From contig NZ_JAQNCY010000001.1 in assembly GCF_028368855.1 (NCBI RefSeq), positions 930,001 to 994,000 of the forward strand: 64,000 bases of DNA, given 5' to 3'. The first letter of the stretch is position 1. Each line of letters opens with the position of its first letter. Both the position numbers and the translations under genes were made by a program. Source of the stretch: Leisingera sp. SS27. Lineage in GTDB: Bacteria; Pseudomonadota; Alphaproteobacteria; Rhodobacterales; Rhodobacteraceae. This document shows positions 42,789-58,312 of the stretch, in pieces. A model generated the notes under the pieces. It was given only the letters and a program-made list of their open reading frames with translations, was not told where the DNA came from and did not search any database.

Positions 42789-43131
42789 TGCTGCTCTCCT
42801 GCGTCAAATCCGGCCCATATATATGTGTGCCCAGGCGCGCAGGGAACCCGGACTGCGCGTTTGCCGCATCTGCAAGGCGGCGGATGTGTTAATCCGCGGC
42901 GGCAAGACCCATGCGCTGCACGCAGCAGCCTGCCCGGAAATTATACAGCCGCATAACGGACTGCCGAAAAACCTGGCCAATTTCAAAGACCTACCCTGCG
43001 TCACCCATGCATATGCCGCATAGCAGCAATGACGAAGCACGGGATTGTGCATCCGCAGCATACCCTTAAATTGTCATTCAAGAAATGCCACAGCGGCACA
43101 CGACGAGACGGTTAGACGAAGGAACAGAACG
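42789..43131. other. Divergent intergenic region between mrp and the DUF1127 gene
   Basis: 343 bp without a gene. It must hold the mrp promoter on the minus strand and the promoter of the ccaF1-like/CcsR transcript on the plus strand. The R. sphaeroides counterpart uses heat-shock-type sigma factors. I could not identify a clear matching promoter by eye; TTGTGC (43045-43050) with TTAAAT (43066-43071) is the best sigma-70-like pair, with a short spacer. Confidence 0.4.
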
Positions 43132-43341
43132 ATGGCAGCAGCACAACAGATCTCCGCGGTGAACTTTGCCTCCCCGCTTGGCTTCCTGGATGCCCTGCTG
43201 GTCAAGTTCGTCCGCTACCGCCTGTACCGCCAGACCGTGAATGAGCTGTCTGCGCTGACCGCCCGCGACCTGGCAGACCTGGGCCTGAACCGGTCCGAAA
43301 TCAAGCGCGTCGCCTACCAGGCGGCTTACGAGAACAACTGA
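43132..43341 (+). CDS. ccaF1: DUF1127 protein, CcaF1-like
   Basis: A 69-residue basic protein with a C-terminal DUF1127 motif (ELSALTARDLADLGLNRSEIKRVAYQAAYE). In Rhodobacter sphaeroides the DUF1127 protein CcaF1 (RSP_6037) is an RNA-binding protein involved in sRNA maturation, and its mRNA carries the CcsR1-4 sRNAs in the 3' part. The same arrangement is present here: four CCTCCTCCC hairpins begin seven bases after the stop. AAGGAAC precedes the ATG at 43132; the longer frame from 43045 is not needed. Confidence 0.85.
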   Translation: MAAAQQISAVNFASPLGFLDALLVKFVRYRLYRQTVNELSALTARDLADLGLNRSEIKRVAYQAAYENN

Positions 43342-43348
43342 TAGAGAT

Positions 43349-43382
43349 CAGGCTCCTTCTCCTCCTCCCTTAGAAGAGCCTG
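43349..43382 (+). ncRNA. ccsR1: CcsR1-like sRNA hairpin
   Basis: CAGGCTC and TTCT pair with AGAA and GAGCCTG around one bulged C. The loop shows CCTCCTCCC. It starts eight bases after the DUF1127 stop. The exposed anti-Shine-Dalgarno-like CU-rich loop is the hallmark of CcsR RNAs. Confidence 0.8.
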
Positions 43383-43388
43383 TCTTCT

Positions 43389-43422
43389 GCGGCGGCATCC
43401 TCCTCCTCCCTGATGCCGCCGC
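43389..43422 (+). ncRNA. ccsR2: CcsR2-like sRNA hairpin
   Basis: GCGGCGGCATC and GATGCCGCCGC form a perfect 11-bp stem with loop CTCCTCCTCCCT. A minor CCGGC/GCCGG hairpin at 43431-43445 separates it from the next unit. Confidence 0.82.
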
Positions 43423-43453
43423 ACCCTATACCGGCCAGAAGCCGGCCTTGGAT

Positions 43454-43485
43454 CACCGGGGTCTCCTCCTCCCTGATACCCGGTG
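43454..43485 (+). ncRNA. ccsR3: CcsR3-like sRNA hairpin
   Basis: CACCGGG and CCCGGTG form the outer stem, with GTC/GAT inner pairs and one bulged A. The loop is TCCTCCTCCCT. Confidence 0.8.
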
Positions 43486-43493
43486 TTTGACAG

Positions 43494-43536
43494 AACGGCG
43501 GTGCCCCTCCTCCTCCCTGGGCGCCGCCGTTTCTTG
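43494..43536 (+). ncRNA. ccsR4: CcsR4-like sRNA hairpin and transcript terminator
   Basis: A 13-bp stem (AACGGCGGTGCCC with GGGCGCCGCCGTT, one G-U pair) shows CTCCTCCTCCCT in its loop and is followed by TTTCTT. The last sRNA therefore doubles as the intrinsic terminator of the ccaF1-ccsR1-4 transcript. Confidence 0.83.
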
Positions 43537-43654
43537 ATTCCGGCACAGTTAATGCCGCACCCGGACCGGGCGGCTGACGGTTTTGCGCTATCCCTTGGCC
43601 GCATCTGCTGATTTGATCGCAGGCATAGGCATCAGTGATTTGCGGGACCGCGTC

Positions 43655-44443
43655 ATGAAATTCATTCACCTCACCGATATCCACCTGATGGCGCCGGGCG
43701 TGCCGCTGAACGGCGGGGACCCGGCGGCGAATTTCAGCCGGGTGCTGGCGGATATTGCCGCATGGCACGCGGACGCCGCGTTCTGCGTAATCTCTGGCGA
43801 TCTGGCGGATGAGGGCGATCCGGCGGCCTATGGCTGGCTGCAAGAGCAGCTGGCAGCCTTTCCGCTGCCTACATTCCTGATGCTGGGCAACCATGACGTG
43901 CGGGAGAGCTTCCTGCAGGTCTTTGCGGACCATCCGCGCAGCGGCGGCGGCTATGTGCAGCACAGCCATGCTGCAGGCGGTGCGAAGTTCCTGTTCCTGG
44001 ACACGCTGACCGGCCGACCGGATGTGCATGACGGCGAATTGTGTGCAGAGCGGCTGGCCTGGCTGGAAACGGAACTGGAAACAGCAGGCGATACGCCTGT
44101 GTTCCTGTTCCTGCATCATCCTCCATTTGACATCGGCCTGCCTTATGTCGATGACATCAAGCTGCGCGACCCGGAGGCGTTTCACGCGGCGCTCAGGAAG
44201 GGGCGGAACATCCGCCATATCTTCTTTGGCCATATTCACCGGATGACCTATGTGAACTGGCGCGGCTACAGTTTCACCTCGCTGCCCAGCACCAACCACC
44301 AGATCCCGCTGGTGCCGGAGCGGGCTGGCACTGAGTACAGTGTCGAGCCCATGGCCTATGGCGTGGTGCAGATCAGCGATGACCAGGTCACAGTGCATTT
44401 CGACGCTTATCTGGACCGTCCAGGACAGGACGCGGCCGGTTAA
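43655..44443 (+). CDS. Metallophosphoesterase, class III cyclic nucleotide phosphodiesterase type
   Basis: A 262-residue calcineurin-like phosphoesterase. All metal-site motifs are present in order: TDIHL (DxH), SGDLADEG (GD), LGNHDVR (GNHD), LHHPPF and FGHIHR (GHxH). The overall pattern is that of CpdA/GpdQ-like enzymes, acting on cAMP or phosphodiesters; the substrate is not provable here. The ATG at 43655 begins directly with the first strand. The DMT permease gene starts immediately after its stop. Confidence 0.88.
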   Translation: MKFIHLTDIHLMAPGVPLNGGDPAANFSRVLADIAAWHADAAFCVISGDLADEGDPAAYGWLQEQLAAFPLPTFLMLGNHDVRESFLQVFADHPRSGGGYVQHSHAAGGAKFLFLDTLTGRPDVHDGELCAERLAWLETELETAGDTPVFLFLHHPPFDIGLPYVDDIKLRDPEAFHAALRKGRNIRHIFFGHIHRMTYVNWRGYSFTSLPSTNHQIPLVPERAGTEYSVEPMAYGVVQISDDQVTVHFDAYLDRPGQDAAG

Positions 44444-45307
44444 GTGGAGCTCTTCTGGATTCTGCTGGTTCTCTTGTCGGCGGTCACCCATCCGCTGCGG
44501 GACCTGACGCTGAAAGGCGTGGCGCATCCGGTGTCCTGCTATACCGGGGTGTGCCTCAGCTGGGTGGTGTTTGCCGCTGTGCATATGGCGCTGGCGGGAC
44601 ACAGCCCTGCCCTGCCCGCCGGGATCTGGCCGCTGGTTCTGGCCTCGGCGCTGGGGCTGACGATTTACTACTACGGCACACTGTCTGCACTGCGGCGGGG
44701 CAATGTCTCAGCCTATTACCCGATTGTGCGCTCTTCGCCCTTGGCCATTGCCGGGTTCAGCTGGCTGATGCTGGGGCAGAGCTATTCAGCCGCAGCTCTC
44801 TTGGGGATGGGGCTGATCATCTGGGCCGGGCTGATGATCCAGAAGGGCAAGGGGCGGCTGCTGGATGACCCGCGTGCCTTCGCCATGGCCCTGATGGCGA
44901 TGCTGGGATCCGCGGCCTATTCGATTTCAGATGCTGCCGCAATGCAAGGCACCACCAGCGCGCCGTTTCTGTTCTGGACCTATATCCTGGTGACGGCGGC
45001 CATGGGGGCTTTGCGAGCGCGGGAGGAACGGGGACAGTCGGCGCCGCTGCTGGGTGTGGTGCGCGGCTGGGTGCAGAACCCCTGGCGCATCCTGTTTGCG
45101 GGACTGTCGTCCTACCTGTCCTATCTGCTGATCCTGCAAGTGTTCCAGCTGGGCGCCGAGGCGGCCGCCGTCAGCGCGGTGCGGCAGGTGTCGATCCCGG
45201 TTTCCGTGATCCTGGCGGCGCTGGTGCTGAAGGAGCCGCGCGGCCTCAGCCGTCTGGGCTGGGCGGTGCTGATTGCCGCAGGCATTGCGATGATTGCGCT
45301 GCGGTAA
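44444..45307 (+). CDS. DMT/EamA family permease
   Basis: A 287-residue membrane protein with about ten hydrophobic helices in two repeated EamA halves (residues ~5-135 and ~148-285). Drug/metabolite transporters of this type export amino acids, metabolites or small organics; the substrate is unknown. It starts at GTG 44444, directly adjoining the TAA of the phosphodiesterase gene, so the two are translationally linked. Confidence 0.87.
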   Translation: MELFWILLVLLSAVTHPLRDLTLKGVAHPVSCYTGVCLSWVVFAAVHMALAGHSPALPAGIWPLVLASALGLTIYYYGTLSALRRGNVSAYYPIVRSSPLAIAGFSWLMLGQSYSAAALLGMGLIIWAGLMIQKGKGRLLDDPRAFAMALMAMLGSAAYSISDAAAMQGTTSAPFLFWTYILVTAAMGALRAREERGQSAPLLGVVRGWVQNPWRILFAGLSSYLSYLLILQVFQLGAEAAAVSAVRQVSIPVSVILAALVLKEPRGLSRLGWAVLIAAGIAMIALR

Positions 45308-51096: not shown

Positions 51097-51418
51097 TTGC
51101 GCGCCCTGCCAGCGCTTTTTGCGCCAATTCGGATGAATTGCGCCAAAATGACGCACACGCAGCGTCACTTTGCGCTGCACCGCAACAAAGAAAGTTACAA
51201 AACTATGCTGCATGTGCAGAATTTCTGCAGAATCTGCAAATGTTAGCGCCAAGCAATGCGGTAAGTTGCAAAGTCAGCACCCCCAAAAAACGCGGCCAGA
51301 AAGGAAAGGACAAGCCGCTTGAGAGCGCAATCATGCCGGAAATACCCAGAACTACTGTTGTGCGGTTCGATAATATCCGCCTAACACTGCACCAACTTGC
51401 ACGGACCCCGAGGGTGAC
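51097..51418. promoter_or_regulatory. Upstream region of pyc with a palindrome
   Basis: 322 bp without a gene. TGCAGAA-T-TTCTGCA (51215-51229) is a perfect 7-1-7 inverted repeat, followed by another TCTGCA and TTGCAA-type words at 51233-51240 and about 51263-51268. It may be an operator controlling pyruvate carboxylase. The regulator is unknown. Confidence 0.5.
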
Positions 51419-55405: not shown

Positions 55406-55480
55406 GCGGGCGTAGCTCAGGGGTAGAGCATTACCTTGCCAAGGTAAGGGTCGTGAGTTCGAATCTCATCGCCCGCTCCA
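55406..55480 (+). tRNA. tRNA-Gly(GCC), copy 1
   Basis: Cloverleaf by eye: acceptor GCGGGCG/CGCCCGC, D stem GCTC/GAGC, anticodon stem TTACC/GGTAA around TTGCCAA (anticodon GCC), T arm with TTCGAAT, discriminator T and encoded CCA. It is identical to copies at 58019 and 58238. Confidence 0.97.
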
Positions 55481-58018: not shown

Positions 58019-58093
58019 GCGGGCGTAGCTCAGGGGTAGAGCATTACCTTGCCAAGGTAAGGGTCGTGAGTTCGAATCTCATCGCCCGCTCCA
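58019..58093 (+). tRNA. tRNA-Gly(GCC), copy 2
   Basis: Same 75-base sequence as copy 1, anticodon GCC, CCA encoded. It marks the right edge of the restriction-modification module. Confidence 0.97.
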
Positions 58094-58237: not shown

Positions 58238-58312
58238 GCGGGCGTAGCTCAGGGGTAGAGCATTACCTTGCCAAGGTAAGGGTCGTGAGTTCGAATCTCA
58301 TCGCCCGCTCCA
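58238..58312 (+). tRNA. tRNA-Gly(GCC), copy 3
   Basis: Third identical tRNA-Gly(GCC), ~145 bp after copy 2. The short spacing between copies 2 and 3 is probably the ancestral tandem arrangement. Confidence 0.97.

Follow-up and report, generated by a model that had tools for sequence, protein, structure and literature searches.

A DUF1127 gene followed by an array of hairpins

We found that a gene for a short DUF1127 protein in Leisingera sp. SS27 is followed by four hairpins that carry a common motif in their loops, and is preceded by a conserved two-box promoter block (43005-43072). Coordinates are positions in the window, the whole stretch of 64,000 nucleotides that we analyzed. The features of the locus, all on the + strand, are:

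43005..43031, +, box 1, CCATGCATATGCCGCATAGCAGCAATG (family consensus CYATGCANTTGCTGCATAGCAGCATTG), a probable transcription-factor site; 11 columns identical in 29 of 29 aligned orthologous upstream regions
43044..43061, +, box 2, ATTGTGCATCCGCAGCAT, which holds the TTG (43045-43047) of a probable -35; TTGTG in 29 of 29
43065..43072, +, probable -10 region, CTTAAATT, at the position of the weakly conserved alignment columns 61-66; predicted transcription start near 43081
43132..43341, +, ccaF1 ortholog, a 69-amino-acid DUF1127 protein (PF06568, E = 7.2e-14)
43349..43382, +, hairpin 1 (unit 1, first of the pair), motif in loop; from the fold, with 2 stem pairs changed on both sides and 97.7% of alignment cells paired
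43389..43422, +, hairpin 2 (unit 1, second of the pair), CGGCGG-type stem, motif in loop; from the fold, with 2 pairs changed on both sides and 100% of cells paired
43431..43445, +, motif-free spacer hairpin between the units, CCGGC-CAGAA-GCCGG; from the fold, with 100% of cells paired in 19 sequences
43454..43485, +, hairpin 3 (unit 2, first of the pair), motif in loop; from the fold, with 1 pair changed on both sides
43494..43531, +, hairpin 4 (unit 2, second of the pair), CGGCGG-type stem, motif in loop, followed by TTTCTTGATT; from the fold, with 1 pair changed on both sides

The ccaF1 product is 63-65% identical, over 37-43 amino acids, to the 71-amino-acid proteins of Cereibacter azotoformans and Cereibacter johrii. 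The last base of its stop codon is 43341, and 7 bases separate it from the first stem, which begins at 43349. The array spans 43349-43531 and all four loops hold CUCCUCCUCCC. The motif CCTCCTCCC within them is at positions 43361, 43402, 43465 and 43509. That is, the spacings are 41, 63 and 44, and the motifs form two pairs. An initial annotation of this DNA had described a DUF1127 gene and then four hairpins with the motif in their loops, and this description was right as far as it went; it omitted both the promoter block and the hairpin without the motif (43431-43445).

The array stood out from shuffled sequence. The fold of 43342-43540 had an energy of -93 kcal/mol (z = -7.47), and none of 200 shuffles was equally stable. 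Two spaced pairs of CCTCCTCCC motifs were found in the window, whereas 100 shuffles gave none. The bare motif occurred four times in the window compared to a shuffle mean of 0.84, and 1 of 100 shuffles reached four. Genome-wide, there were 56 matches to the bare motif and 60 to the reversed pattern, and a loose tandem pattern was found at 8 places compared to 7 for its reverse. Based on these counts, we rejected the notion that the motif is enriched in the genome. Four of the 8 tandem places are the ccaF1 array itself; the remaining four are at three sites. The signal is the folded, conserved array, rather than the frequency of the motif in the genome.

Hairpin 4 is probably a terminator, with a weak T-tract. 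The T-tract claimed in the initial annotation amounts to TTTCTTGATT, and a strict terminator scan limited to loops of 3-8 bases found none at hairpin 4, which has a loop of 12. We also noted that a mechanically called ORF of 410 amino acids on the opposite strand (43370-44602, -) overlaps the greater part of the array and might be annotated as a gene by mistake.

Loops are conserved and stems covary within the genus

The search for relatives covered 61 genomes, including 21 from the same genus (the genome of the window among them). All 21 had four motifs, with spacings of 40-41, 62-66 and 44-45. The same-genus sites that we fetched were at ccaF1 in 19 of 21 cases. The other two (L122 and L137) were elsewhere; the ccaF1 loci of their genomes were found separately and have four motifs each.

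In the 19 aligned same-genus sequences, the CCTCCTCCC core was unchanged in all four loops. A lack of loop conservation in sister species was one of the results that would have refuted the initial annotation, and the loops proved to be conserved. In one sequence (L123), hairpin 4 is three bases shorter, outside of the core.

Covariation of the stems, proposed earlier as a check, was also seen in these 19 sequences. Standard pairs made up 99.4% of 835 stem cells, compared to 31-49% when the partners were slid. Six of the 44 stem pairs had changed on both sides (13 cells), and none of 500 shuffles scored as high. A different measure of covariation, the number of further pair types, was not significant in the same sequences (94 of 500 shuffles). 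The only variation in the spacer hairpin was a U-G in place of C-G at a single pair, which gives this hairpin no compensatory support. Contrary to what had been claimed, the stems do not differ completely between units: hairpins 2 and 4 have common CGGCGG..CCGCCG stems and are the related ones in the window.

A CcsR RNA contains two hairpins

We compared the array to known RNA families. The Rfam model for CcsR1 (RF02791) matched 43340-43427 (40.1 bits, E = 2.7e-8) and 43445-43535 (35.8 bits, E = 5.2e-7), each time below its gathering score (65.3). The model has 83 positions and two hairpins, and both halves of the array align with it over its full length.

Two hairpins per RNA is consistent with what has been described in Rhodobacter sphaeroides. 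The transcript RSs0680a (printed RS0680a) is reported to have two stem loops with an anti-Shine-Dalgarno motif in each (PMC3927594) and to be co-transcribed with RSP_6037 (PMC3320616). RSP_6037 is given as ccaF1 (PMC8625941) and, because of this co-transcription, RSs0680a is presumably an earlier name of a CcsR RNA.

The arrays of C. johrii (L085 and L090, two contigs of one strain) and C. azotoformans (L084; the record is named Luteovulum azotoformans, now Cereibacter) have eight motifs in four pairs, with spacings of 36-38 within pairs and 66-79 between pairs. Both species are congeneric with R. sphaeroides, and the comparison covered 16 sequence records, R. sphaeroides not among them. Based on these arrays and the two-hairpin description of RSs0680a, we infer that R. 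sphaeroides also has eight motifs.

The initial annotation had called the locus a complete CcsR1-4, with one RNA for each of the four hairpins. We rejected this assignment because one CcsR RNA holds two hairpins. A complete CcsR1-4 array would have eight motif hairpins in four pairs, as in C. johrii and C. azotoformans. In contrast, the window has four motifs in two pairs, and the two-hairpin CcsR1 model matches only twice. Thus, the four hairpins of the window correspond to two CcsR-like units.

The locus is of the known ccaF1-CcsR kind ("CIN1"/cuckoo RNA), in a short, two-unit version. The CIN1 type is described as a gene for a short DUF1127 protein adjoining CcsR-like RNAs (PMC10253847). 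Such a gene adjoins CcsR-like RNAs in Leisingera, and the locus also has a conserved CCUCCUCCC loop with variable stems: the CCTCCTCCC core is invariant and six stem pairs have changed on both sides in the 19 sequences. The kind of locus was correctly recognized in the initial annotation, given the same layout with four motifs in all 21 same-genus genomes and at least two motifs in 28 of the 29 other best-matching loci (see below).

The closest known system is the ccaF1-CcsR1-4 operon of R. sphaeroides, in which the DUF1127 gene is also directly before tandem paired hairpins with CCUCCUCCC loops. The C. johrii and C. azotoformans loci share with the window a similar upstream two-box block and differ from it in having four pairs rather than two. 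They also differ at the end of the array, which is hairpin 4 in the window and, as we read the sequence, seems to be a motif-free hairpin in these two species. The ar14/NfeR1 RNA of rhizobia (RF02344) has tandem hairpins with the same loop motif; its model matched 43343-43450 with 39.9 bits, below the gathering score of 58.8. Rhizobial NfeR1 is reported to differ in having three hairpins and an RpoD-type promoter (PMC10746234).

The array seems to vary in length by pairs of hairpins

Related loci are widespread in the family. The protein was matched in 264 of 295 family genomes. The CcsR1 model was matched at E ≤ 0.001 in 324 of 394 (17 of the 394 above the cut-off), and in 1 of 14 control genomes (Thermus composti, below the cut-off).

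We compared the loci of the 30 best protein matches, including the window. In 29 of the 30, at least two motifs followed the DUF1127 gene, with a range from 2 to 14. Counting ended 700 nt past the stop codon (at the contig end in L036), and the longest arrays may exceed 14. The exception, L042, had no array and no clear boxes, and was left out of the gap analysis and of the upstream alignment described below (n = 29 for each). Motifs with altered loops were not counted, which may explain the odd totals in L025, L035 and L045.

Gaps between motifs alternated in length. The first and every second gap had a median of 42 (87 gaps, 34-105), compared to a median of 64 for the other gaps (63 gaps, 38-90), and none of 10,000 permutations within arrays reached this difference. 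The number of motifs was even in 24 of the 29 arrays, and gaps alternated strictly at a 50-nt cut in 22 of 29, counting one (L041) that has a single gap. Stems without and with the CGGCGG-type sequence, a rough classification, alternated strictly in 14 of 29. Based on the alternation of gaps and stems over these arrays, the array seems to gain and lose hairpins in pairs.

The neighborhood is less constant. A divergent Mrp/ApbC neighbor was found in 13 of the 30 loci, too few for this synteny to be a defining feature, and we rejected it as such. The promoter block accompanies ccaF1 also where this neighbor was not found.

A conserved two-box block upstream of ccaF1

The aligned upstream regions share the two boxes listed above. 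The family form of box 2 is ATTGTGCANNYGCAGCAT, and the boxes are 12 bases apart in the window. The columns between them (28-38 of the alignment) are identical in at most 16 of 29 sequences. Among 46 additional CcsR loci, which include Cereibacter, were selected by their CcsR match and contain duplicates, 41 also had the box 2 pattern at a distance of 200-520 nt upstream of a motif. With up to two mismatches allowed, the Leisingera genome has a single match to an 18-nt segment of box 1. At the ccaF1 locus of another genome of the genus (G411), box 1 is degraded, and box 2 and the array remain. We noticed a close copy of box 1 elsewhere in G411 (L137, ~1492-1518), between ORFs that by eye are LysR-type and purL-like; there is no array there.

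The R. sphaeroides ccaF1-CcsR operon is reported to have an RpoHI/RpoHII promoter, processing by RNase E and a terminator (PMC10253847). RpoHI promoters are described as having A-12 and T-9, and RpoHII promoters C-14 and T-13 (PMC3441632). The TTG of box 2 is what an RpoH-type -35 would be expected to have. Counted from it, positions -12 and -9 in the window are A and T, without C-14/T-13, and the probable -10 appears to fit RpoHI better than RpoHII. The extra conservation, in box 1 and between the -35 and the -10, suggests a further regulator.

We considered PhaR. Its sites in Sinorhizobium meliloti are reported to have a YGC-RNY-GCR core (PMC12542648), and PhaR of Paracoccus and R. sphaeroides is said to recognize repeated TGC sequences (PMC10888616). 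Neither box has the core: the center of box 1 is A-T-A or A-T-G (RNR) in 29 of 29 sequences, and in box 2, TGC and GCA are separated by 4 bases. PhaR as the protein that might bind the boxes is only a lead. The organism's own phaP promoter (L139, 1328-1377 in reverse-complement coordinates) has two YGCRNYGCR cores that flank TTGAAA. The pattern TGYTGCNNNGCARCA, with one mismatch allowed, had 192 places in the genome per strand compared to 16 for its reverse, and seems too permissive to be informative.

Box 2, with up to two mismatches, was found at 15 places in the genome compared to none for the reversed pattern. A mechanically called ORF overlaps every one of the 15 places, even the ccaF1 site, such that the overlap with ORFs does not distinguish promoter from coding sequence, and we claim no regulon. 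Two copies are associated with Pfam matches: one is 61 bp before an ORF for a short-chain dehydrogenase, and the other overlaps an ORF for a glycosyltransferase on the opposite strand. A copy with one mismatch, ATTCTGCACATGCAGCAT (51205-51222, -; L094), lies in a stretch with several TGC/GCA repeats, ~200 bp before an opposite-strand ORF that by eye resembles biotin carboxylase/pyruvate carboxylase.

It is possible, although we consider it rather doubtful, that an undescribed DNA-binding regulator reads the two TGC-rich boxes throughout the family, in addition to the RpoH-type promoter, and that the array is a module whose length, from 2 to at least 14 motifs gained and lost by pairs, tunes the dose of anti-Shine-Dalgarno loops. 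The boxes resemble PhaR sites without matching them, and such a regulator might tie carbon storage to stress riboregulation. Neither the two-box block nor arrays as long as 14 motifs came up in the part of the R. sphaeroides and rhizobial literature that was covered; papers on CcsR, CcaF1 or the cuckoo family may already describe them.

Proposed function of the operon

Based on the gene, the hairpins, their paired layout, conservation, covariation and the promoter block, we think that the locus is a stress riboregulator operon of the ccaF1-CcsR type with two CcsR units (probability about 0.85). What is known of relatives suggests how promoter, transcript, cutting, CcaF1 and target pairing would work together. 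The RpoH-type promoter with its two TGC-rich boxes would give rise to one short transcript, with a leader of ~50 nt, the CcaF1 gene, and two paired-hairpin RNAs separated by the small spacer hairpin, ending at hairpin 4. RNase E would release the CcsR units, and CcaF1, as a DUF1127 RNA-binding protein, would modulate their maturation. In R. sphaeroides, RNase E is reported to cut the ccaF1-CcsR transcript and CcaF1 to take part in maturation (PMC10253847). Under stress, the exposed CUCCUCCUCCC loops would then base-pair with selected mRNAs at extended Shine-Dalgarno sequences (GGGAGGAG), and translation of these mRNAs would be blocked. The flhR mRNA is described as a target of CcsR1-4 (PMC8307010), and three of the same motifs in NfeR1 of S. 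meliloti are reported to silence ntrB by pairing at the translation start (PMC10746234). By analogy with NfeR1 and CcsR, the Leisingera loops should cover extended Shine-Dalgarno sites.

We looked for such sites. The pattern GGGAGGAG-N3-12-ATG was found at 34 places in the genome compared to 5 for the reversed pattern, an excess to be expected for any Shine-Dalgarno-like sequence. These 34 include the antisense strand of the array itself (L161) and at least six places that give ORFs of fewer than 25 amino acids. Among 20 Pfam-scanned ORFs (from 30 of the 34 places), six encode parts of solute uptake systems (DctQ, two DctP, Peripla_BP_5, TctC and Na_Ala_symp). These places are candidate targets only.

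We considered other functions for the hairpins. It is unlikely, but not far-fetched, that the loops serve as a sponge or ligand for a protein, either CcaF1 itself or Hfq, rather than as seeds for pairing with mRNA, with the length of the array setting the capacity for titration. Identical loop cores repeated in 2 to 14 motifs, next to the gene for CcaF1, are what one might expect of a sponge, and an interaction of CcsR with Hfq is described (PMC8307010). However, the loop sequence complements Shine-Dalgarno sequences, and base-pairing is the reported mode of action of the three motifs of this kind in NfeR1 (PMC10746234).

We consider it less probable still that the hairpins act mainly in cis, as a structure in the 3'-UTR that protects the ccaF1 mRNA or times its decay and ends transcription, with no targets in trans. 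Their position directly behind the stop codon and the short T-rich stretch after hairpin 4 fit such a role, but an element needed purely for stability has no use for an invariant loop core, and here the CCTCCTCCC core is invariant while the stems change with compensation. Arrays of up to 14 motifs, and the action in trans described for CcsR (PMC8307010) and NfeR1 (PMC10746234), also argue against it.

Finally, a C-rich, hairpin-rich spacer that arose by chance and has no function would be consistent with the genome-wide counts (56 vs 60 and 8 vs 7), but this notion can be dismissed in view of the two CCTCCTCCC pairs compared to none in 100 shuffles and the fold z of -7.47, and is refuted by the likeness of 21 of 21 same-genus genomes and by the covariation. 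The stress riboregulator with pairing loops is the reading that we favor.

Related genes and neighbors

The Leisingera genome has eight DUF1127 matches, including a weak one with an internal stop. Three of the genes outside the window (L009, L011 and L013) have a single CTCCTCC anti-Shine-Dalgarno motif 21-25 nt past the stop codon; that is, single-motif versions exist beside the array. In L009, the motif is in a clear hairpin ahead of a terminator-like hairpin. A search of the 350 nt ahead of the domain match gave no box-like pattern in any of the three.

The array is followed by a gene for a calcineurin-like phosphoesterase (43643-44440, +), for which the nearest NCBIfam model is SpdA, below its cut-off (228 vs 400 bits). 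Farther along, three identical tRNA genes (55406-55477, 58019-58090 and 58238-58309, all +; anticodon GCC by reading) lie within 3 kb.

Implications

The kind of locus found here is already known. The corrected number of units is well supported, and the promoter block is a good open lead and the part most worth following. Our results show the ccaF1-CcsR kind outside of the model organism and with a clear anatomy, a two-hairpin unit and a spacer hairpin. The number of units is alike in the 21 genomes of the genus and variable in the family, and the promoter block is conserved in distant genera. With this anatomy, it can be tested which factor binds to the boxes, and whether regulatory strength is set by how many hairpin pairs an array has.
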